A stretch of 64,000 nt of DNA. It comes from Nocardioides caldifontis (GTDB lineage Bacteria > Actinomycetota > Actinomycetes > Propionibacteriales > Nocardioidaceae). Where the stretch lies: assembly GCF_008087345.1 (NCBI RefSeq), contig NZ_ML701737.1, forward strand, positions 310,001 to 374,000, in the 5' to 3' direction. Below are positions 8,299 through 59,867 of the stretch, piece by piece. Position 1 is the first letter of the stretch; each line of letters opens with the position of its first letter. The notes beneath the pieces were generated by a model. It was not told the DNA's origin. It saw only the letters and a list, made by a program, of their open reading frames with translations, and searched no databases. The position numbers and the translations under genes are program-made.

Positions 8299-8324
8299 GG
8301 TTTCCCATGGTGCCCTGGGAAACC
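8299..8324 (+). terminator. Hairpin after the DnaB-like gene
   Basis: A perfect 9-bp stem GGTTTCCCA/TGGGAAACC with an 8-base loop, 18 bp after the stop codon. There is no T-run, so this is a terminator or a transcript-stabilising stem. The segments at 8316-8335 and 8350-8369 are imperfect direct repeats of one another (TGGGAA...TCCCCA, 34 bp apart). Confidence 0.45.
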
Positions 8325-8529
8325 GGTGCTCCCCACAGGTTGCAGTCGATGGGAACCACCAGTTCCCCATGGAGTACGACGCCCGCGCCGACGGCAACCA
8401 CCCCGGACGACAGCCCTCGGACTCAGCCCGGGTCGCGACCCGGCGCGCCAGGAGTCGTTCAGGTGAACGACCTTCGACGTCGTTCGGCCGGTTGCCGGGT
8501 CAAATGTTCGTTCACGTGCACGGACCCCG

Positions 8530-8603
8530 GCCACGACGGGCGGCGGCTCGCCACGTGGGGCGGCTCAACGTCTCCAGGACGCGCCACGAAGGGCGGCTCA
8601 ACA
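8530..8603 (-). repeat. Family A repeat copies, 3 units
   Basis: Read on the minus strand from the end of rplA, the units are GTTGAGCCGCCCTTCGTGGC (ending at 8583), GTTGAGCCGCCCCACGTGGC (ending at 8550) and a degenerate GAGCCGCCGCCCGTCGTGGC. The first two are 33 bp apart. The same core recurs at 25109, 41093 and 59752 in this window. Confidence 0.75.
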
Positions 8604-20917: not shown

Positions 20918-21568
20918 GTGGCCGACACCGTCTCCCGTCCCGGCGCCCAGGAGTGGGTGCCCTCGCGTCCGACCCTCCCCCGCCTCCGCTCGGCGGTCGA
21001 CGACTGCCGCGGCTGCGAGCTGTACGCCGACGCCACGCAGGCCGTCCTCGGCGACGGCCCGGACGACGCGCCGCTGCTGGTCGTCGGCGAGCAGCCCGGG
21101 GACAAGGAGGACCTCGCCGGCGAACCGTTCGTGGGGCCGGCCGGGAAGCTGCTGGACAAGGCGCTCGAGTCCGCCGGGATCGCCCCGGAGTCGGTCTTCC
21201 GCACCAACGCCGTCAAGCACTTCCGGCACGAGGGGACCCGCGGGAAGCAGCGGATCCACAAGACCCCCGGCCGCGCCCACGTGGTGGCCTGCCAGCCGTG
21301 GTTGCTGGCCGAGCTGTCCGTCGTACGGCCGGTCGGGGTGGTGCTGCTCGGTGCGACGGCAGGGCAGGCGGTCTACGGCTCGTCGTTCCGGGTCGGGGCG
21401 TCACGCGGGACGCGGATGGAGTGGCCCTCGTCGCTGGAGATCGCCGCGACGCCGGAGTGGGTGGTGCCGACCGTCCACCCGTCCTCGATCCTCCGGTCGA
21501 GGCAGCGGGACGCCGACCTGGAGGCGTTCGTCGCCGACCTCCGCGTCGCCGCCTCCCTGCTCCCCTGA
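20918..21568 (+). CDS. udgX: UdgX-type uracil-DNA glycosylase
   Basis: 216 residues. Family 4/UdgX motifs: VVGEQPGDKEDLAGEPFVGPAG (about 55-76), NAVKHFRH (97-104), the UdgX insertion loop GKQRIHKTP (109-117), and TVHPSSILR near the C-terminus. Cysteines C30, C33 and C125 plus His101, in the place of the fourth cysteine of ordinary family 4 enzymes, are the likely iron-sulfur ligands. UdgX removes uracil and is known to become covalently fixed to the abasic site through the loop histidine, here H114. The loop reads KQRIH rather than the usual KRRIH. The stop codon lies within the first unit of the family B repeat array. Confidence 0.88.
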   Translation: MADTVSRPGAQEWVPSRPTLPRLRSAVDDCRGCELYADATQAVLGDGPDDAPLLVVGEQPGDKEDLAGEPFVGPAGKLLDKALESAGIAPESVFRTNAVKHFRHEGTRGKQRIHKTPGRAHVVACQPWLLAELSVVRPVGVVLLGATAGQAVYGSSFRVGASRGTRMEWPSSLEIAATPEWVVPTVHPSSILRSRQRDADLEAFVADLRVAASLLP

Positions 21569-21691
21569 CCGCCGACCCGTCGCATCTTCACGCCTCATGA
21601 CCGCCGAGCCGTCGCATCTTCACGCCTCATGACCGCCGACCCGTCGCATCTTCACGCGCCAGGGCCGCCGAGTCGTCGCAACTTCACTCCG
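21566..21691 (+). repeat. Family B repeat array, left copy (4 units, 32-bp period)
   Basis: Units start at 21566, 21598, 21630 and 21662. Each is 32 bp: a variable lead (TGACCG or similar), the core CCGAGCCGTCGCATCTTCAC, then a short tail (GCCTCA). Units 1 and 3 have C for G in GAGCCG, and unit 4 is more degenerate (GAGTCGTCGCAACTTCAC). The first unit starts with the TGA stop codon of udgX. The same repeat occurs inverted at 22476-22593. Confidence 0.92.
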
Positions 21692-21742: not shown

Positions 21743-22474
21743 GTGAACCCACTCGACTCCTGGGGCCGGGGCATCCACACCGCCGGCGACCGCACGTACT
21801 CCTACTTTCGCAAGGGCTCCGGCCCCGCCGTCGTGGTCATCCACGAGCTGCCGGGGATCATCCCGGAGGTCGTGGAGCTCGCCGAGGAGGTCGTCGACCG
21901 CGGCTTCACCGTCGTGCTGCCGCACCTCTTCGGCCAGGCCGGCAGGAAGGCGACGCCGGGGTACGCCGCCGCGACGGTCGCCACGGTGTGCGTGAACCGG
22001 GAGTTCACCGCGTTCGCGCTCGGCCGTACGCCGCCCATCGCGACGTGGCTCCGCTCGCTCGCCGTCGAGCTGCACGAGGAGCTCGGCGGCCCCGGCGTGG
22101 GGGCGGTCGGGATGTGCTTCACCGGCGGGTTCGCCCTCGCGATGCTCGCCGGCGCCCCGGTCGCGGCGCCGGTCGTCGCCCAGCCATCGACGCCGTTCCC
22201 CCTCGGGCCGAAGCGCGCCGCCGACCTGAACCTGAGCCCGGCGGACCTCGACTCCGTCCGCGACAAGGTGGTCGGGGGGTGCCAGGTGCTCGGGTTGCGG
22301 TACGCCGGGGACCCGGCCGTCGGCCAGCGGTTCGACACGCTCCGCCGTGAGCTCGGGGACAACTTCATCGCCGTCGAGTTCCCCGGCCGCAAGCACTCGA
22401 CGTTGACGTTGCACCGTCAGCAGGAGGGGGTCGACCGGGTCCTCGATTTCCTCACCGAGAAATTGCGGGGCTGA
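21743..22474 (+). CDS. Dienelactone hydrolase family protein
   Basis: 243 residues from a GTG at 21743. Alpha/beta-hydrolase with the dienelactone hydrolase signature: VVIHELPGIIPEVVELAE near the N-terminus, the cysteine nucleophile in GMCFTGGFALAM, and the catalytic histidine in GRKHSTLT; the acid is probably in LRYAGDPAVGQRF. Known members cleave dienelactone in chlorocatechol breakdown, but most homologues act on unknown esters. It stands alone between two inverted family B repeat arrays. Confidence 0.85.
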   Translation: MNPLDSWGRGIHTAGDRTYSYFRKGSGPAVVVIHELPGIIPEVVELAEEVVDRGFTVVLPHLFGQAGRKATPGYAAATVATVCVNREFTAFALGRTPPIATWLRSLAVELHEELGGPGVGAVGMCFTGGFALAMLAGAPVAAPVVAQPSTPFPLGPKRAADLNLSPADLDSVRDKVVGGCQVLGLRYAGDPAVGQRFDTLRRELGDNFIAVEFPGRKHSTLTLHRQQEGVDRVLDFLTEKLRG

Positions 22475-22475
22475 C

Positions 22476-22593
22476 AGGAAGACGCGACGGCTGGGCGTCG
22501 GTCCTGCGTGAAGTTGCGACGGCTCGGCCGGGTTTTATGCCTGAAGATGCGACGGCTCGGCCAGGTTCGCCCGTGAAGATGCGACGGCTCGGC
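22476..22593 (-). repeat. Family B repeat array, right copy (4 units, inverted)
   Basis: On the minus strand four cores of CCGAGCCGTCGCATCTTCAC type lie at 22573-22593, 22541-22561, 22508-22528 and 22476-22496, so the period is 32, 33, 32. The last is the most degenerate. The array begins exactly where the truncated flavoprotein gene loses similarity. Its orientation is opposite to the array at 21566-21691. Confidence 0.92.
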
Positions 22594-23336: not shown

Positions 23337-24488
23337 ATGCAGTTCGGGATCTTCACGGTCGGCGACGTCACCACCGACCCGACCACCGGCCGCACCCCGA
23401 CGGAGCACGAGCGGATCAAGGCCACCGTCGCCATCGCGAAGAAGGCCGAGGAGGTCGGGCTCGACGTCTTCGCCACCGGTGAGCACCACAACCCGCCGTT
23501 CATCGCCTCCGCACCCACGACCACGCTGGCCTACATCGGCGCGCAGACCGAGCGGATCATCCTCAGCACCGCGACCACGCTGATCACCACCACCGACCCG
23601 GTGCTGATCGCGGAGAACTACGCCAAGCTCCAGCACCTGACCGACGGCCGCGTCGACCTCGTCATGGGGCGCGGCAACACCGGCCCGGTCTACCCCTGGT
23701 TCGGCAAGGACATCCGTCAAGGCATCCCGCTGGCGATCGAGAACTACGCGCTGCTCCGCCGGCTCTGGCGCGAGGACGTCGTCAACTGGGAGGGCAAGTT
23801 CCGCACGCCGCTGCAGGGGTTCACCAGCACCCCGCGGCCGCTCGACGGCGTCCCCCCGTTCGTCTGGCACGGCTCGATCCGCTCCCCCGAGATCGCCGAG
23901 CAGGCGGCGTACTACGGCGACGGCTTCTTCGCCAACCACATCTTCTGGCCCGCCTCGCACACCCAGCGGATGGTGAACCTCTACCGCCGCCGGTTCGAGC
24001 ACTACGGCCACGGCGCGGCCGACCAGGCGATCGTCGGGCTCGGCGGCCAGGCCTTCATGCGCAAGAACAGCCAGGACGCGGTCCGCGAGTTCCGCCCGTA
24101 CTTCGACAACGCGCCCGTCTACGGTCACGGCCCCTCCCTCGAGGACTTCGCCGAGATGACGCCGCTCACCGTGGGATCGCCGCAGCAGGTCATCGAGCGC
24201 ACCCTCGGCTTCCGTGAGTACGTCGGCGACTACCAGCGCCAGCTCTTCCTCATGGACCACGCGGGGCTGCCGTTGAAGACGGTCCTCGAGCAGCTCGACA
24301 TCCTCGGCGAGGAGGTCGTCCCGGTGCTGCGCAAGGAGTTCGCCGCCCTCAAGCCGGCGCACGTCCCGGACGCCCCGACCCACGCGTCGCTGGTCGCGGC
24401 CGCGGCCGGCGGGAAGGACAGCACGGTGTACGCCGAGGCCGACAGCGCCACCGGCTCGCGCGCCGAGGACGCCGGAGCGGTCCGATGA
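23337..24488 (+). CDS. LLM-class flavin-dependent monooxygenase (CE1758-type)
   Basis: 383 residues. Bacterial luciferase-like fold: MQFGIFTVGDV at strand 1, TGEHHNPPFIASAP, LSTATTLITTTDPVLIAE, the LVMGRGNTGPVYPWFG flavin-phosphate segment, and TVGSPQQVIERTLGF near the C-terminus. The neighbouring flavin reductase and the sequence match the CE1758/CE1759 two-component pattern. It would oxidise an organic substrate with FMNH2 and O2. The substrate is unknown, but the KstR-like site upstream hints at steroid or lipid catabolism. GGAGC precedes the ATG. Confidence 0.85.
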   Translation: MQFGIFTVGDVTTDPTTGRTPTEHERIKATVAIAKKAEEVGLDVFATGEHHNPPFIASAPTTTLAYIGAQTERIILSTATTLITTTDPVLIAENYAKLQHLTDGRVDLVMGRGNTGPVYPWFGKDIRQGIPLAIENYALLRRLWREDVVNWEGKFRTPLQGFTSTPRPLDGVPPFVWHGSIRSPEIAEQAAYYGDGFFANHIFWPASHTQRMVNLYRRRFEHYGHGAADQAIVGLGGQAFMRKNSQDAVREFRPYFDNAPVYGHGPSLEDFAEMTPLTVGSPQQVIERTLGFREYVGDYQRQLFLMDHAGLPLKTVLEQLDILGEEVVPVLRKEFAALKPAHVPDAPTHASLVAAAAGGKDSTVYAEADSATGSRAEDAGAVR

Positions 24489-25102
24489 CCTACACCGTCG
24501 CGGTCGTCTCCGCGGGGCTCTCCCAGCCGTCCTCCACCCGACTGCTCGCCGACCGGCTCGCCGAAGCGGTCCGGGCGCAGGTGAAGGAGGCCGGCGGTGA
24601 GGTGCTCGTCGAGGTCGTCGAGCTACGGCCGCTGGCCCACGCGCTCGCCGACAACCTCGTCACCGGCTTCCCGCCGCCCGAGCTCGAGGCGGCCATCGCG
24701 GCGGTCACGTCGGCGGACGCGCTCGTCGCGGTCACGCCGGTGTTCACCGCGTCGTACGCCGGGCTCTTCAAGACGTTCTTCGACGTGCTCGACAAGGACG
24801 CGCTGGCCGGGAAGCCGACCCTCGTCGCCGCGACCGCCGGGACCGCCCGCCACTCGCTGGTGCTCGAGCACGCGCTGCGGCCCCTGTTCTCCTACCTGCG
24901 CGCGGTGGTCGTCCCGACCGCGGTGTTCGCGGCGACGGAGGACTTCGGCGACACCACCTCGGGGCAGCTGCAGGAGCGGATCGACCGGGCGGCCGGCGAG
25001 CTGGCCGCGCTGCTCGCGCCCTCGACGGTCCGGCGCGCGCCCGCACCGGACCCGTTCGAGGAGGTCACGCCGTTCGAGGAGCTGCTCCGCGGCAACGGCT
25101 GA
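24485..25102 (+). CDS. NAD(P)H-dependent FMN reductase (CE1759-type)
   Basis: 205 residues, overlapping the monooxygenase gene by 4 bp (ATGA). Flavodoxin-like fold: VAVVSAGLSQPSSTRLLADR for the FMN phosphate, VAVTPVFTASYAGLFKTFFD, and ATAGTARHSLVLEHALRPLF. It should supply reduced FMN to the upstream monooxygenase. A family A repeat array starts 7 bp after its stop codon. Confidence 0.88.
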   Translation: MTYTVAVVSAGLSQPSSTRLLADRLAEAVRAQVKEAGGEVLVEVVELRPLAHALADNLVTGFPPPELEAAIAAVTSADALVAVTPVFTASYAGLFKTFFDVLDKDALAGKPTLVAATAGTARHSLVLEHALRPLFSYLRAVVVPTAVFAATEDFGDTTSGQLQERIDRAAGELAALLAPSTVRRAPAPDPFEEVTPFEELLRGNG

Positions 25103-25108
25103 CGCCGC

Positions 25109-25225
25109 GCCACGAGGGGCGGTTCAACGCGAAACACCGCGCCACGAGGGGCGGTTCAACGTCAAACACCGCGCCACGAGGGGCGGTTCAACACCCGACC
25201 GCGCGCCACCATGGAGGGCTCAGGA
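25109..25225 (-). repeat. Family A repeat array (4 units, 32-bp period)
   Basis: On the plus strand GCCACGAGGGGCGGTTCAAC starts at 25109, 25141 and 25173. A fourth, degenerate unit (GCCACCATGGAGGGCTCAGG) starts at 25205. The starts are exactly 32 bp apart. Read on the minus strand the array begins at the stop codon of the isomerase-like gene, whose TGA occupies the same place as TGA in the consensus GTTGAGCCGCCCCTCGTGGC. Confidence 0.92.
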
Positions 25226-26038
25226 GGTCAGCCGGCTCGCCAGGAACCGGCGGACCCGTTCCAGGTCGCCGGTCGTGCGGACCCCAGGGTCGTCCGGCGA
25301 GGCGCGCTTCCACAGCACCTTGAGCAGCAGCGCCGCGGGCGCCTCGACGGCGTCGGTGCCGGGCCGGTCCTCGACGAGGACCCGGGGCACCAGCGGCCGC
25401 TCGCCGGTGCGGCTCTCGACGGGAGACGCCTGGGCCGGGAAGTCGCCGCGGGTCGCGGGTTCGACGACCCACGACCGCTTGACGTCGGTGGCCCGCAAGG
25501 AGATCGGTGCGGTGAGGTCGGCGGCGTACCCCCGGCTGTGCATGCGGTGCAGGAAGACGGTCAACGCCTCGTCGATCCCGTCCGCGGCGAGGTGCGGCGG
25601 CAGCCGTTCCGCGGTCCCGGTCGCCATCGCGAGGTCGACTCCGTGCATCACGGTCTCGTGGGTCTGCCGGCGCTGCCAGAAGCCGACCCGGCCGGCACCG
25701 AAGGCGAAGTTCCAGCACGGCTTGTCCGCAGGGATGTCCCGGAGCACGGAGTAGAGGTCCTCGGCACGACCGAGGTACCACTCCGCGACCCGGCGCGCCT
25801 TGTGCGACGACGGACGGTCGTCGAGCCCGTACGCCGCCCGACCGGTCTCGACCACCGTGGCCGCCCACGAGTGGGTGTTGCCGAGGTGGACGACGAGGTC
25901 GAGCACGGTCCAGTCCGGGCACGTGGGGACGGCCTGCCGCATCCCCGCGCGGGCGACGTGGTCGGCGAACCACTCGGCCGCGGCCGCGAACTCGACGACG
26001 AAGTCGAGGCCGGTGCCGGCCCGTGTCGCCGAGTCCAT
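25220..26038 (-). CDS. Maleylpyruvate isomerase family mycothiol-dependent enzyme
   Basis: 272 residues. The N-terminal DinB-like/MDMPI helical bundle has CPDWTVLDLVVHLGNTHSWAA and QTHETVMHGVDLAMATG, whose histidines form the usual metal site. The C-terminal half is an MDMPI_C-like domain. Members use mycothiol as cofactor, consistent with mshA in this window. The exact reaction is unknown because most family members are uncharacterised. Start ATG at 26036-26038. Confidence 0.85.
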   Translation of the reverse strand: MDSATRAGTGLDFVVEFAAAAEWFADHVARAGMRQAVPTCPDWTVLDLVVHLGNTHSWAATVVETGRAAYGLDDRPSSHKARRVAEWYLGRAEDLYSVLRDIPADKPCWNFAFGAGRVGFWQRRQTHETVMHGVDLAMATGTAERLPPHLAADGIDEALTVFLHRMHSRGYAADLTAPISLRATDVKRSWVVEPATRGDFPAQASPVESRTGERPLVPRVLVEDRPGTDAVEAPAALLLKVLWKRASPDDPGVRTTGDLERVRRFLASRLTS

Positions 26039-34592: not shown

Positions 34593-35234
34593 GTGATCGT
34601 GCCCCGGAACCGCAAGGTCGCGCCCGAGCGGCGTCGAGGAGTCGACGTCCGGTGGCGCGACCTCGCTCCCGACGAGCGGCACGGCGACGTGACCTCCCAC
34701 TACCGGACGGTGCTCGACTGCGCCCGGGACCTTCCGCTCCCCGATGCGCTCGCGGTCGCCGACTCCGCCCTGCGCCACCGCGACATCGACCAGGAGCGGC
34801 TCGTCGAGCTGGCCCTCACGGTCCCCACGACTGGCCGGACGGAGGCACTCCGCGTCGCGACCGAAGCCAGCCGGCTGGCGGCGAACCCGTTCGAGTCGGC
34901 GGTGCGGGGCATCAGCCTCGAGGTGCCGGGGCTCCGGTTGCGGCCCCAGGTCTGGATCGAGGAGCGTGGGTTCCGCGGCCGCCCCGACCTCGTCGACCGC
35001 CGGCGCCGGCTGGTGGTCGAGGCCGACTCGTTCCAGTTCCACGGCACGCGCCGGGCGCTCCGACGCGACTGCGAGCGGTACAACGCCCTCGTCGTGCGCG
35101 GGTGGACCGTCCTGCGGTTCGCCTGGGAGCACGTCATGTTCGAGCGCGACTACGTCCGGGACTGCCTCATCGCTGTCACGGCAGGGCCCGACCGACGTGC
35201 AGATCTGCCGCCGACGCTGCTCTGGACCGCCTGA
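34593..35234 (+). CDS. DUF559 (Vsr-like nuclease fold) protein, apparently shortened at the N-terminus
   Basis: 213 residues from a GTG at 34593. The C-terminal half is a DUF559 domain: ANPFESAVRGISLEVPGLRL (Glu), RGRPDLVDRRRRLVVEADSF (the Asp of PDL and the E-x-D pair of a PD-(D/E)xK/Vsr-like active site), RDCERYNALVVRGWTVLRFAW. Many actinobacterial relatives are about 300 residues with an AbiEi-like winged-helix N-terminus, which is absent here, so the gene may be 5'-truncated. Function is unproven for the family; a DNA-cleaving role is inference. It lies between two copies of the family C repeat. Confidence 0.7.
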   Translation: MIVPRNRKVAPERRRGVDVRWRDLAPDERHGDVTSHYRTVLDCARDLPLPDALAVADSALRHRDIDQERLVELALTVPTTGRTEALRVATEASRLAANPFESAVRGISLEVPGLRLRPQVWIEERGFRGRPDLVDRRRRLVVEADSFQFHGTRRALRRDCERYNALVVRGWTVLRFAWEHVMFERDYVRDCLIAVTAGPDRRADLPPTLLWTA

Positions 35235-41036: not shown

Positions 41037-41170
41037 CTACAAGGCCATGTAGGTGCATCCAGCGCTGCTGGACGTGGTTGAACGCTCGTCCCGCCACGAG
41101 GGGCGGCTCGACGAGTTAAGGATCGCTACACGTACATGTGCAGATTCGCGATTGTGCTACAACGCACATC
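41037..41170. promoter_or_regulatory. Candidate LysR-binding motifs in the LysR/prpF intergenic region
   Basis: Three CTACA elements, each with six bases before a partner: CTACA-AGGCCA-TGTAG (41037-41052), CTACA-CGTACA-TGTGC (41126-41141) and CTACA-ACGCAC-ATC (41157). The first is a perfect inverted repeat and the others are decayed. Spacing fits a LysR recognition-plus-activation arrangement. Confidence 0.4.
41093..41113. repeat. Single family A repeat copy
   Basis: GCCACGAGGGGCGGCTCGAC starts at 41093, inside the LysR/prpF promoter region. It is preceded by GTTGAACGCTCGTCCC, which may be the remnant of an inverted second copy. Unlike other A copies it is not next to a stop codon. Confidence 0.75.
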
Positions 41171-56948: not shown

Positions 56949-59756
56949 ATGCCCGCGGTCCAGGACCACAGCCACCACCCGGACGCCACCGGGCTGGAGC
57001 GGCGACGGCTCCTGGAGCCGCTGCTCGACCCGGACGGGCCCGGCGCGATCGTGGTGATGGCCCCTCCGGGGTCGGGGAAGACCACCCTGCTGGCCAGCGC
57101 CGCGGCTGCCGCGGAGGCCGACGGGCAGGCGACGGCGTGGTGCCCGGTGGAGGTCGAGGACCGGGTCGCGGCCACCTTCCTGACCCGGCTCGCCGGCGGG
57201 CTCGCCCGTGCCTGCGGGGCTCCGCTCGGCAGCCCTGCGGGGGTGCCGGAGCTGCTCGACGCGGTGGCCGGCACGCGCAGGCCGGTCACCGTGTACGTCG
57301 ACGACGCCCACGAGCTCGAGGGATCCCCGGCGCAGGAGCACCTCGAGGCGCTCGTGCGGCGCCGCGCAGCAGGGGTGCGGGTCGTGGTCGGCACCCGCCG
57401 GCCGCTCCGGCTCAACACTCCCCGGATGGTCGTCTCCGGCGAGCTGCTCGAGCTCGACGGCGAGGCGCTGCGGTTCCGCTCGTGGGAGGTCGAGGAGCTC
57501 TTCCGCATGGTGTACGGCGAGCCGCTGTCCCCGGAAGGAGCGGCAGCCCTGACCCGGCGTACCGGAGGGTGGGCCGCCGGGCTCAAGCTCTTCCACCTCG
57601 CGACCGCCGGGAAGTCCCCCCTCGAGCGGGAGCGCGCGGTCGCGGAGCTCGGGGGCCGGTCGCGGCTGCTGCGCAGCTACCTCACCCGGACCGTCCTCGA
57701 CGAGCTCGACCCGGGGCTGCGCGGCTTCCTGCTCACCACCAGCACCCTCGGGACGCTCACCGCCCCGCTCTGCGACGCGCTGCTGGAGAGGGACGGCTCC
57801 GCTGCCGTCCTCGCAGAGTTGTCCACACGACAATTTTTCATCGTCGCTGCTGAGGACGGCTCGACGTTCCACTACCACCAGGTGATGCAGACGCTCCTCG
57901 AAGGGCTCCTCGTGGAAGAGGTCGGCATCGACGCGGCCCACCGGGTCTACGCCCGCAGCGGGGCGGTGCTCGAGGCAGCCGGTCTGGCGTCCGAGGCGGT
58001 GCGCGCCTACGCGCTGGCGGAGGACAACGCGTCGGTGGCCCGGCTGCTCCAGCAGTCCGGGGCGGCGCTCGCGGCCGACCACATCGAGGCGCTCCCGTGG
58101 CCGACGGACGACCCGTGGCTGGCGCTGGCACGCGCGCGACGGTTGCACCGCCGAGGTGCGCTCTCGGAGTCGATGGCGGCCTTCCGCGCCGCCGAACGGC
58201 TCCTCGACGACGCCGACTTCCGCCGCCGGTGCCAGGAGGAGCGGGCGGAGGTGGCGCTCTGGGCAGACCCGGGTGCCGTCGTCGGCGGGGCCGCTCACCG
58301 GGGCGGGCGGTTCTCGCTCGGCGAAGCGCTGCGCCGGACGACGAGGCGGGTCGACCACGAGGAGCAGCCGCGGCTCCCGCGGCTCGCACGCGCGGTCGCG
58401 GCGGCGTTGGCCGGCGACCTCCCCGGGGCCCGCGCGGAGCTCTCCGCCGCGCGGGGGCTGTCGGACACCGAGCGGCTGGTGGCCGCCCTTCTGGCCTCGC
58501 TCCTGGACGCGTCGGACACCGCCGGGGCCTCCGACCCGTCCGGGGCGGAGCCGCGGCTGCTGGCGCGGCTCGAGGAGATCGTGCTGACCGCCGACGTCCA
58601 GGACCAGCCGTGGCTGGCCCGGCTGGCGCGCGGCGTCCAGGCGACCGCGCTCGCCGCCACCACCGACCAGCCGTGGCGGGTCCAGTCGTGCGCAGCGGTC
58701 GTCGAGGAGTGCGAGGACGCCGGCGACCGCTGGGGCGCGCTGCTCCTCGCGGGCGGGCTCGGGTGGGCCCTGGCGTGCCGCGGCGACGAGGGCGGGGCGC
58801 AGCGCTGGCTGGACGGTGCGGCCGAGACGGCGACCTCGCTCGGCGCCCCGGTGCTGGGCGCGTGGGCCGCGCTCCTCGGCGCGGCGGTCACGCGGGGCGG
58901 CCCGGACGCCGGGGCGCGCCAGGCCAGGGCGCGCCGGCTCGCACGGGGCTGCGGGGTGGCCGGCGCCGAAGCGCTCGTCGAACGGCTCGTGACCCGCCCT
59001 GAGCCGACACCCCCGCCCGCGACAGCCGCCACCCTCACCACGATCCGGTGCCTGGGTGCGTTCGAGATCGAGGTCGAGGGCGCCGTCGTGCCCGTCGACG
59101 CGCTGCGCCCGCTCCCCCGTTCGCTGCTGATGGTGCTCGCGCTCCGGCACGGACACGACGTGCACCGCGAGGACCTCATCGAGGCGCTCTGGCCGCAGAG
59201 CACCGTGGAGGAGGCGTCCCACCGGCTGCACGCGGCCGCCTCGAGCGTGCGCCGCTGCCTCGCCGACGCGGGAGCCGCGGACGCCGTGCTGCGCCGGGGC
59301 AACGGCTACCGGCTCGAGCTGCCCGGCGCCGAGCTCGACGTCACCGCCTTCGAGGACGCCGCCCGCGCGACGCAACGCCACCTCGCCGACCACGAGCCCG
59401 AGGCCGCGCTCGCCGTCGGGCTGGCGGCTCTGGAGCTCTACCGCGGCGACCTGGTGCCGGAGGCAGGTCCCCAGGAGTGGGTCGTCGAGGAGCGGGCCCG
59501 GCTCCGGCTCGCCGCCGCCACCACGGCCTGCACCGCCGGCCGGGTGGCCCTCGGGCTCGGCCGGCTCGAGCAGGCGCTGGACATCGCCCACCGCTCCACC
59601 GTGCTCGACCCGCTGCGCGACTCGGCCTGGGCACTGCTCGGCGAGGTGCAGACCATGATGGGCGACGTGACGGCCGCGGCGGCCACCAGGTCCCGGCACG
59701 CCCGGGTGCAGGCCGAGACGTCCGCCGTACCTCGTGGTGGGCCCGCCCGTCGTTGA
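56949..59756 (+). CDS. Large STAND ATPase regulator with SARP-type DNA-binding and BTAD domain
   Basis: 935 residues. The N-terminal MalT-like ATPase module has Walker A APPGSGKTTLL (38-48) and Walker B VTVYVDDAHEL. Winged-helix and TPR-like helical repeats fill about 270-690. From about 697 there is an OmpR-like DNA-binding domain (IRCLGAFEIEVEGAVVPVDA, RHGHDVHREDLIEALWPQ) and a bacterial transcriptional activator domain to about 925. It lies 39 bp after the hydrolase gene, probably cotranscribed, and converges on the baseplate genes, so it is a strong candidate regulator of the injection system. The stop codon is inside the first unit of a family A repeat array. Confidence 0.85.
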   Translation: MPAVQDHSHHPDATGLERRRLLEPLLDPDGPGAIVVMAPPGSGKTTLLASAAAAAEADGQATAWCPVEVEDRVAATFLTRLAGGLARACGAPLGSPAGVPELLDAVAGTRRPVTVYVDDAHELEGSPAQEHLEALVRRRAAGVRVVVGTRRPLRLNTPRMVVSGELLELDGEALRFRSWEVEELFRMVYGEPLSPEGAAALTRRTGGWAAGLKLFHLATAGKSPLERERAVAELGGRSRLLRSYLTRTVLDELDPGLRGFLLTTSTLGTLTAPLCDALLERDGSAAVLAELSTRQFFIVAAEDGSTFHYHQVMQTLLEGLLVEEVGIDAAHRVYARSGAVLEAAGLASEAVRAYALAEDNASVARLLQQSGAALAADHIEALPWPTDDPWLALARARRLHRRGALSESMAAFRAAERLLDDADFRRRCQEERAEVALWADPGAVVGGAAHRGGRFSLGEALRRTTRRVDHEEQPRLPRLARAVAAALAGDLPGARAELSAARGLSDTERLVAALLASLLDASDTAGASDPSGAEPRLLARLEEIVLTADVQDQPWLARLARGVQATALAATTDQPWRVQSCAAVVEECEDAGDRWGALLLAGGLGWALACRGDEGGAQRWLDGAAETATSLGAPVLGAWAALLGAAVTRGGPDAGARQARARRLARGCGVAGAEALVERLVTRPEPTPPPATAATLTTIRCLGAFEIEVEGAVVPVDALRPLPRSLLMVLALRHGHDVHREDLIEALWPQSTVEEASHRLHAAASSVRRCLADAGAADAVLRRGNGYRLELPGAELDVTAFEDAARATQRHLADHEPEAALAVGLAALELYRGDLVPEAGPQEWVVEERARLRLAAATTACTAGRVALGLGRLEQALDIAHRSTVLDPLRDSAWALLGEVQTMMGDVTAAAATRSRHARVQAETSAVPRGGPARR

Positions 59757-59867
59757 GCCGCCCTTCGTGGCGCGTGTCTTGGCGTTGAGCCGCCCCTCGT
59801 GGCGCGTGTCTTGGCGTTGAGCCGCCCCTCGTGGTTGACACGGTGTCACCACGAGGGGCGGCTCGAC
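59752..59867 (+). repeat. Family A repeat array ending in an inverted copy (large hairpin, likely bidirectional terminator)
   Basis: GTTGAGCCGCCCCTCGTGGC-type units start at 59752, 59784 and 59816 (32-bp period). The TGA in the first is the stop codon of the regulator gene. An inverted unit (CCACGAGGGGCGGCTCGAC, 59849-59867) follows, pairing with the third in 18 of 19 positions. The loop is itself the palindrome TGACACGGTGTCA (59836-59848). It lies between the regulator and the convergent tail gene. Confidence 0.92.

Follow-up and report, generated by a model that had tools for sequence, protein, structure and literature searches.

Two families of short intergenic repeats in Nocardioides caldifontis, here called A and B, are probably the dispersed, non-autonomous pieces of a larger element in which one gene lies between a tandem array and the inverse of that array, and whose product, the cognate nuclease, would bind the repeat units and spread them. 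The pairing of a repeat family with the nuclease gene that it brackets suggests that this is a mobile or domesticated element of a kind not recognised before.

The repeats came to notice in a stretch of 64,000 nucleotides (“the window”), the relevant features of which are collected in Table 1. Copies of core A with at most three mismatches number 10 in the window, against 0.02 expected. A search of the window and of three array-bearing stretches with the covariance models of Rfam 15 matched only tRNAs, and none at the arrays.

Table 1. Repeat units in the window and the genes that adjoin them (positions counted from the first letter of the window).
Feature	Position	Strand	Remarks
Hairpin-type dispersed repeat, about 62 bp	8303-8364	+	CCCATGGTGCCCTGGGAAACCGG..
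Family A array, 2 units 33 bp apart	8550-8602	-	beyond the rplA (L1) terminator
Family B array, 4 units, period 32	21571-21687	+	GCCGAGCCGTCGCATCTTCAC type; starts at the stop of gene 20918-21568
Family B array, 4 units	22476-22593	-	inverted relative to the 21571 array
Convergent neighbour of the 25109 array	24485-25102	+	NADPH-dependent FMN reductase homologue
Family A array, 3 intact units	25109-25128, 25141-25160, 25173-25192	-	GTTGAACCGCCCCTCGTGGC; period exactly 32
Degenerate fourth A unit	25205-25224	-	32 bp beyond the third unit
Host gene whose 3' end meets the A array	25220-26038	-	mycothiol maleylpyruvate isomerase homologue (MDMPI_N, MDMPI_C)
Single A unit between divergent genes	41093-41112	-	
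Family A array, 3 units, period 32	59752-59835	+	first unit begins GTTGA
Inverted A unit	59848-59867	-	completes an inward pair, [>>>][<], with the 59752 array

The first-pass annotation had described units lying exactly 32 bp apart at 25109-25225, and this is what we see, with three intact units and a degenerate fourth; as a genome-wide rule the period does not hold, spacing elsewhere being 32 or 33 bp. Its placing of a TGA stop codon in the first unit is correct for the isomerase-like gene, the TGA at 25222-25220, inside the degenerate unit, being the stop of the MDMPI gene, and the like pattern that it saw at 59752 is also real, the TGA at 59754-59756 in the first GTTGA unit serving as the stop of gene 56949-59756. 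This cannot be generalized, however, as among about 70 array runs the TGA of GTTGA is the host stop in only about six; a stop codon does not define the element and is a by-product of location in mostly convergent 3' gaps. Three-frame stop codons were also rejected as the purpose of the 32-bp period, given that most cores of other species contain no TGA and that a period of 33 is as common in A.

Statistics of array context were drawn from 1.63 Mb, about a third of the 4.81 Mb assembly, using gene calls made in this analysis, and cover the array runs just mentioned. In family A the units are spaced at 31 (six cases), 32 (23 cases) or 33 bp (34 cases), in family B at 32 (29 cases) or 33 bp (five cases); overall the spacing is 32 or 33 bp, with a few instances at 29-31 and 34. 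The core is about 0.90 identical between loci, whereas the spacers, 11-13 bp long and common to the units within an array, have an identity of 0.82 (A) and 0.65 (B) inside one array and of 0.50 (A) and 0.37 (B) between runs. The proposal that the whole 32-bp unit is repeated therefore stands insofar as there is a real dispersed element, but not for the spacer, which varies between loci. Spacers alike within arrays and cores alike between loci point to local tandem duplication together with strong conservation of the core. Variable unit numbers and shared spacers are also what ordinary minisatellites arising from slippage would show; slippage alone cannot give hundreds of dispersed cores, a 20:1 inward pairing, species-private cores or one cognate gene per family, and we attach practically no probability to it.

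Paired arrays face inward, [>>>]..[<<<], in 20 cases and outward in one, and single arrays also occur. No target-site duplication was seen by eye in the 20 inward pairs, the ends of the element are not sharply defined, and no empty site within the species came to light. The cores of A, B and the other families are asymmetric and without a GTAG head, some having a short inner palindrome, GCCGAGTCGGC. CRISPR arrays and integron attC sites were set aside on anatomy alone, the spacers being only 11-13 bp and common within arrays; GTTGAGC would fit the attC motif GTTRRRY, but the other families lack it. Three inward A pairs of N. caldifontis (G000 C5:296018, C5:394215 and C1:242895) enclose a common centre of about 145 bp whose ends are inverted, GGAGCCGCCGCTGG..CCAGCGGCGGCTCC. 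Distinct GTTGAG-headed repeats of the GTTGAGCTTGTCGAAACC type occur beside A arrays or away from them (G000:C1:46530 and C5:85792) and may represent a further family.

A search allowing up to three mismatches found 315 copies of core A in the 4.8 Mb genome and five of the reversed pattern used as a control, so that the repeat is not confined to one window. Family B (sense core GCCGAGCCGTCGCATCTTCAC) has 136 copies genome-wide, with the same architecture and period as family A, and nearly all arrays of period 31-34 reported by TRF in 840 kb belong to A or B. Comparison across the Nocardioidaceae gave 0-1 copies of core A in each of 341 related genomes of the family, four congeners included: family A is private to N. 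caldifontis, while arrays with other cores exist in some species. The exact tandem pattern of core A has no match in GTDB, from which the window's own genome may be absent. Congener G001 contains no arrays of this kind in 400 kb, its rplA 3' gap holds a terminator only, and the array at 8550-8602 is absent from the orthologous site; in congener G003 the same gap carries four units of a different core at period 32, two direct and two inverted. A generic array pattern built from core B and this G003 core detected arrays in 16 of 342 family genomes and, across the whole of GTDB, 67 loci, 66 of them in Nocardioidaceae.

Position relative to genes is far from random, favouring 3' ends and convergent gaps. 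Arrays mostly start within about 30 bp of a stop codon, chiefly in convergent gaps, 23 of 122 of which are occupied as against 19 of 758 other gaps (Fisher p 1e-10). Such strong enrichment, a core that remains constrained while the spacers drift, and the presence of arrays in the rplA gap of G003 where relatives have an ordinary terminator hairpin would all suit arrays that serve the host, with the AbiEi-nuclease or another factor binding at 3' ends and copies kept for their function as a transcription barrier or topological insulator, a role proposed for gyrase-bound BIME-2. We think this unlikely: the absence of A from the 341 relatives and of such arrays from 400 kb of G001 argues against any general need, an ordinary terminator still precedes the array at rplA in N. 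caldifontis, and the location needs no more explanation than avoidance of coding and promoter regions. A role in RNA, the units forming mRNA hairpins that act as terminators or exonuclease barriers, is very improbable. In 33 of 37 convergent-gap runs the nearer gene reads the units in sense, and core A could form a short CGCC/GGYG stem; the bias of 33:4, however, is due to the inward layout and is weak for single arrays in codirectional gaps (9 sense, 5 antisense), of 116 units 28 have an A-C that breaks the other candidate stem as against 4 with A-T, the cores of other species share no evident stem, and the same arrays flank a gene on both sides. The hairpin within the unit was rejected, as covariation fails.

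The cognate gene was sought by asking what inward arrays enclose. In several other species the enclosed proteins belong to one family, which predicted that genes of this family would be bracketed by A and by B in the present genome. The proteins are about 310-335 aa long and combine an AbiEi-type winged helix with a Vsr-like PD-(D/E)XK nuclease (Pfam AbiEi_4 and REase_MTES_1575; for the assignment of the latter to the Vsr-like fold see PMC3710099). Searches with DUF559 and with profiles identified exactly two strong members of this clade in N. caldifontis, one (C7:31358-32278) between four A> and three A< units at period 33, the other (C6:187670-188605) between three B> and four B< units at period 32; the genome also has three weaker paralogues, which neither A nor B brackets. 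Of 1274 ordinary genes, only three are enclosed within 250 bp by inward arrays of a single family, namely a dienelactone hydrolase gene in the window, a UDG homologue and one short call. The dienelactone hydrolase gene (window 21743-22474) and the UDG-superfamily gene (G000:C5:88505-89018) both sit between inward B arrays in a cargo-like manner, which may reflect two adjacent insertions. The window also contains a DUF559/MTES_1575 gene (34593-35234) in which no AbiEi domain was detected and which has no A or B arrays nearby.

PF13338, the AbiEi-type winged helix, was found in all four proteins scanned, two of which reach the Pfam cut-off; PF18741 was likewise found in all four, below the cut-off, and PF04480 exceeds its cut-off in the A protein. 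The residues expected for catalysis, E205, D237, E248, D250 and H255, are invariant in 20 of 20 clade members. The AlphaFold model is of poor quality in the nuclease domain (mean pLDDT 59), its best Foldseek match being a weak one to AbiEi (6y8q), and a search of solved structures by sequence returned no match. Y1_Tnp (PF01797) was found neither in the genome (G000, 99.65% complete) nor in the cognate proteins, which rules out a RAYT system. An origin from phages or plasmids was also rejected: viral contigs contain no match to the arrays, phages none to the protein, and the protein searches produced one weak match in a plasmid collection and one short match in a viral contig.

Since AbiEi is a type IV antitoxin and an autorepressor that binds 23-bp repeats (PMC3985639), and MTES_1575 nucleases occur in conflict proteins (PMC3710099), the gene might instead belong to a conflict module, a restriction-like or toxin-antitoxin nuclease for which the arrays are an operator or self marks and the dispersed copies are passive. 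Operators would be expected upstream only, yet the arrays sit on both sides of the gene, and hundreds of copies are found at the 3' ends of unrelated genes. Each bracket holds one gene only, with no AbiEii nucleotidyltransferase or other partner toxin gene inside. We regard a conflict module as distinctly unlikely, and favour the reading of the arrays and the bracketed gene as parts of a single element.

Whether brackets are general was addressed with 20 clade members from 13 genomes, scored for flanking by a tandem repeat and, on the opposite side, by the inverse of that repeat, with 250 ordinary genes as a control. Of the clade members, 17 scored above the 98th percentile of the ordinary genes, and 12 reached the maximal bracket score, which none of the 250 did; brackets were weak in three (L313, L320 and L331). 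The best bracket periods fall at 21-22 or 31-33, apart from one tie at 30/32, and correspond to two or three helical turns. Most homologues in 12 further Nocardioidaceae genomes have brackets made of arrays with other cores; the cores differ among clade members, though most begin G(C/T)(C/T)GAG, and the first half of the unit is conserved and the second half variable. Element and dispersed repeats share one core in N. gansuensis (11 of 13 loci), in MAG34 (29 of 30 loci, one being the element itself) and, judged by eye, in N. szechwanensis.

Close clade members are present in 145 of 217 sampled family genomes. The sister genes L304 and L320 both lie between the genes for L,D-transpeptidase (Ldt) and qcrB, and the sister genes L305 and L311 both lie between RelA and a DUF349 gene, and in each pair the cores are different. 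Sister genes at syntenic sites with different cores indicate that the gene is inherited in place while its bracketing repeat changes, and spreads in some species. The convergent gap between qcrB and the L,D-transpeptidase gene is occupied by clade members of two different subclades in several species (L303, L320, L321 and L330); the clade genes L323 and L329 are on the qcrB side of this gap.

How such an element could work is suggested by AbiEi itself, a monomer of which binds an asymmetric 23-bp box, the boxes being arranged in inverted sets with short spacers (PMC3985639; Rv2827c of M. tuberculosis, PMC7319586). In the authors' proposal, about 11 bp of the box are read by the winged helix and the remainder by the C-terminal domain (PMC3985639). 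The proteins described here have a winged helix of the same family, and their units, similar in length to that box, are conserved in the first half and variable in the second, and can thus be read as one-protomer boxes; each 20-23 bp unit would most likely bind one protomer of the cognate protein, and spacing by two or three whole helical turns would align the bound molecules on one face of the DNA. The nuclease may then cut or nick at or near the arrays, and repair or re-insertion would copy them to new places and alter the number of units, the copies persisting between convergent genes, where they probably do little harm. The gene usually exists in one to four copies at fixed sites, so that the full element does not look freely mobile; descent would keep it in place, and meanwhile its repeats would spread and their core change, as with RAYT genes and REPs. 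Unlike these proteins, AbiEi of the type IV toxin-antitoxin system has no nuclease domain, acts with AbiEii and has its boxes in its own promoter, whereas the boxes here form dispersed arrays and flank the gene on both sides.

The textbook example of dispersed repeats in bacteria is the REP sequence, whose associated enzyme is the RAYT transposase. In REP/BIME systems, and in REPINs with their RAYT, the cognate gene is bracketed by inverted copies of the repeat, is usually single-copy and is vertically inherited (PMC2817692; PMC8049555). The A and B families resemble REP/RAYT (TnpA-REP) in having more than 100 short extragenic copies, in inverted pairs and mosaics, and a gene bracketed by its own repeat, as well as in a gene that is inherited in place, a repeat that spreads, and the joint divergence of the two. 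They differ in the enzyme, which is not a Y1/HUH transposase but joins an AbiEi-type winged helix to a Vsr-like nuclease, and in the units, which are asymmetric boxes of 20-23 bp in direct tandem at two or three helical turns and not GTAG-headed palindromes. The A/B system would function like RAYT/REP but is not a member of it. Among actinobacteria, MIRUs are intergenic repeats, partly tandem and in some cases located at stop codons; they have longer units, oriented in operons at stop/start overlaps, whereas A and B arrays are mainly in convergent gaps, have 32-33 bp units and come with a cognate gene. EDxHD and Vsr-like homing endonucleases, relatives of the nuclease fold, spread their own gene; here there is no intron, intein or allelic homing site, and it is the putative binding arrays that have spread to many unrelated sites. 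The first-pass annotation knew of no named element of this form, and we have found none that the array fits, nor any description of this AbiEi-nuclease/repeat system in the open-access literature.

The gene-repeat principle may extend beyond this clade. The hairpin repeat of about 62 bp in the window recurs at five or six sites in 1.63 Mb, mostly in convergent gaps, and a weaker AbiEi-type paralogue of N. caldifontis (L306, G000:C4:78904-79620) is bracketed by inverted copies of it. A paralogue in the congener G001 (L326, G001:C1:334078-334965) is bracketed by inverted hairpins of the GTTTCACTAGGTACCTAGTGAC type, the core of which also recurs in 400 kb of that genome. On balance, if by a modest margin, we favour the broader view of a large class of self-spreading gene-repeat systems, convergent with RAYT/REP, whose enzymes are the solo AbiEi-winged-helix/Vsr-like nucleases; each paralogue would read its own repeat, be it tandem arrays at whole helical turns or hairpins, and copy it to other sites in the genome.

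These solo nucleases are abundant and unexplained in these actinobacteria. If the broader view is true, N. caldifontis carries at least three such systems together: A, B and the L306 hairpin family. An unrelated protein family here has the REP-like signature of one bracketing repeat family per gene, inherited in place, with a repeat that spreads and diverges. This would assign a role to a gene family that is common in actinobacteria and carries no annotation beyond AbiEi antitoxin or DUF559, would explain the private intergenic repeats in these genomes, and would offer natural pairs of proteins and asymmetric 20-23 bp DNA sites for studying how specificity changes in sequence-specific DNA-binding nucleases.
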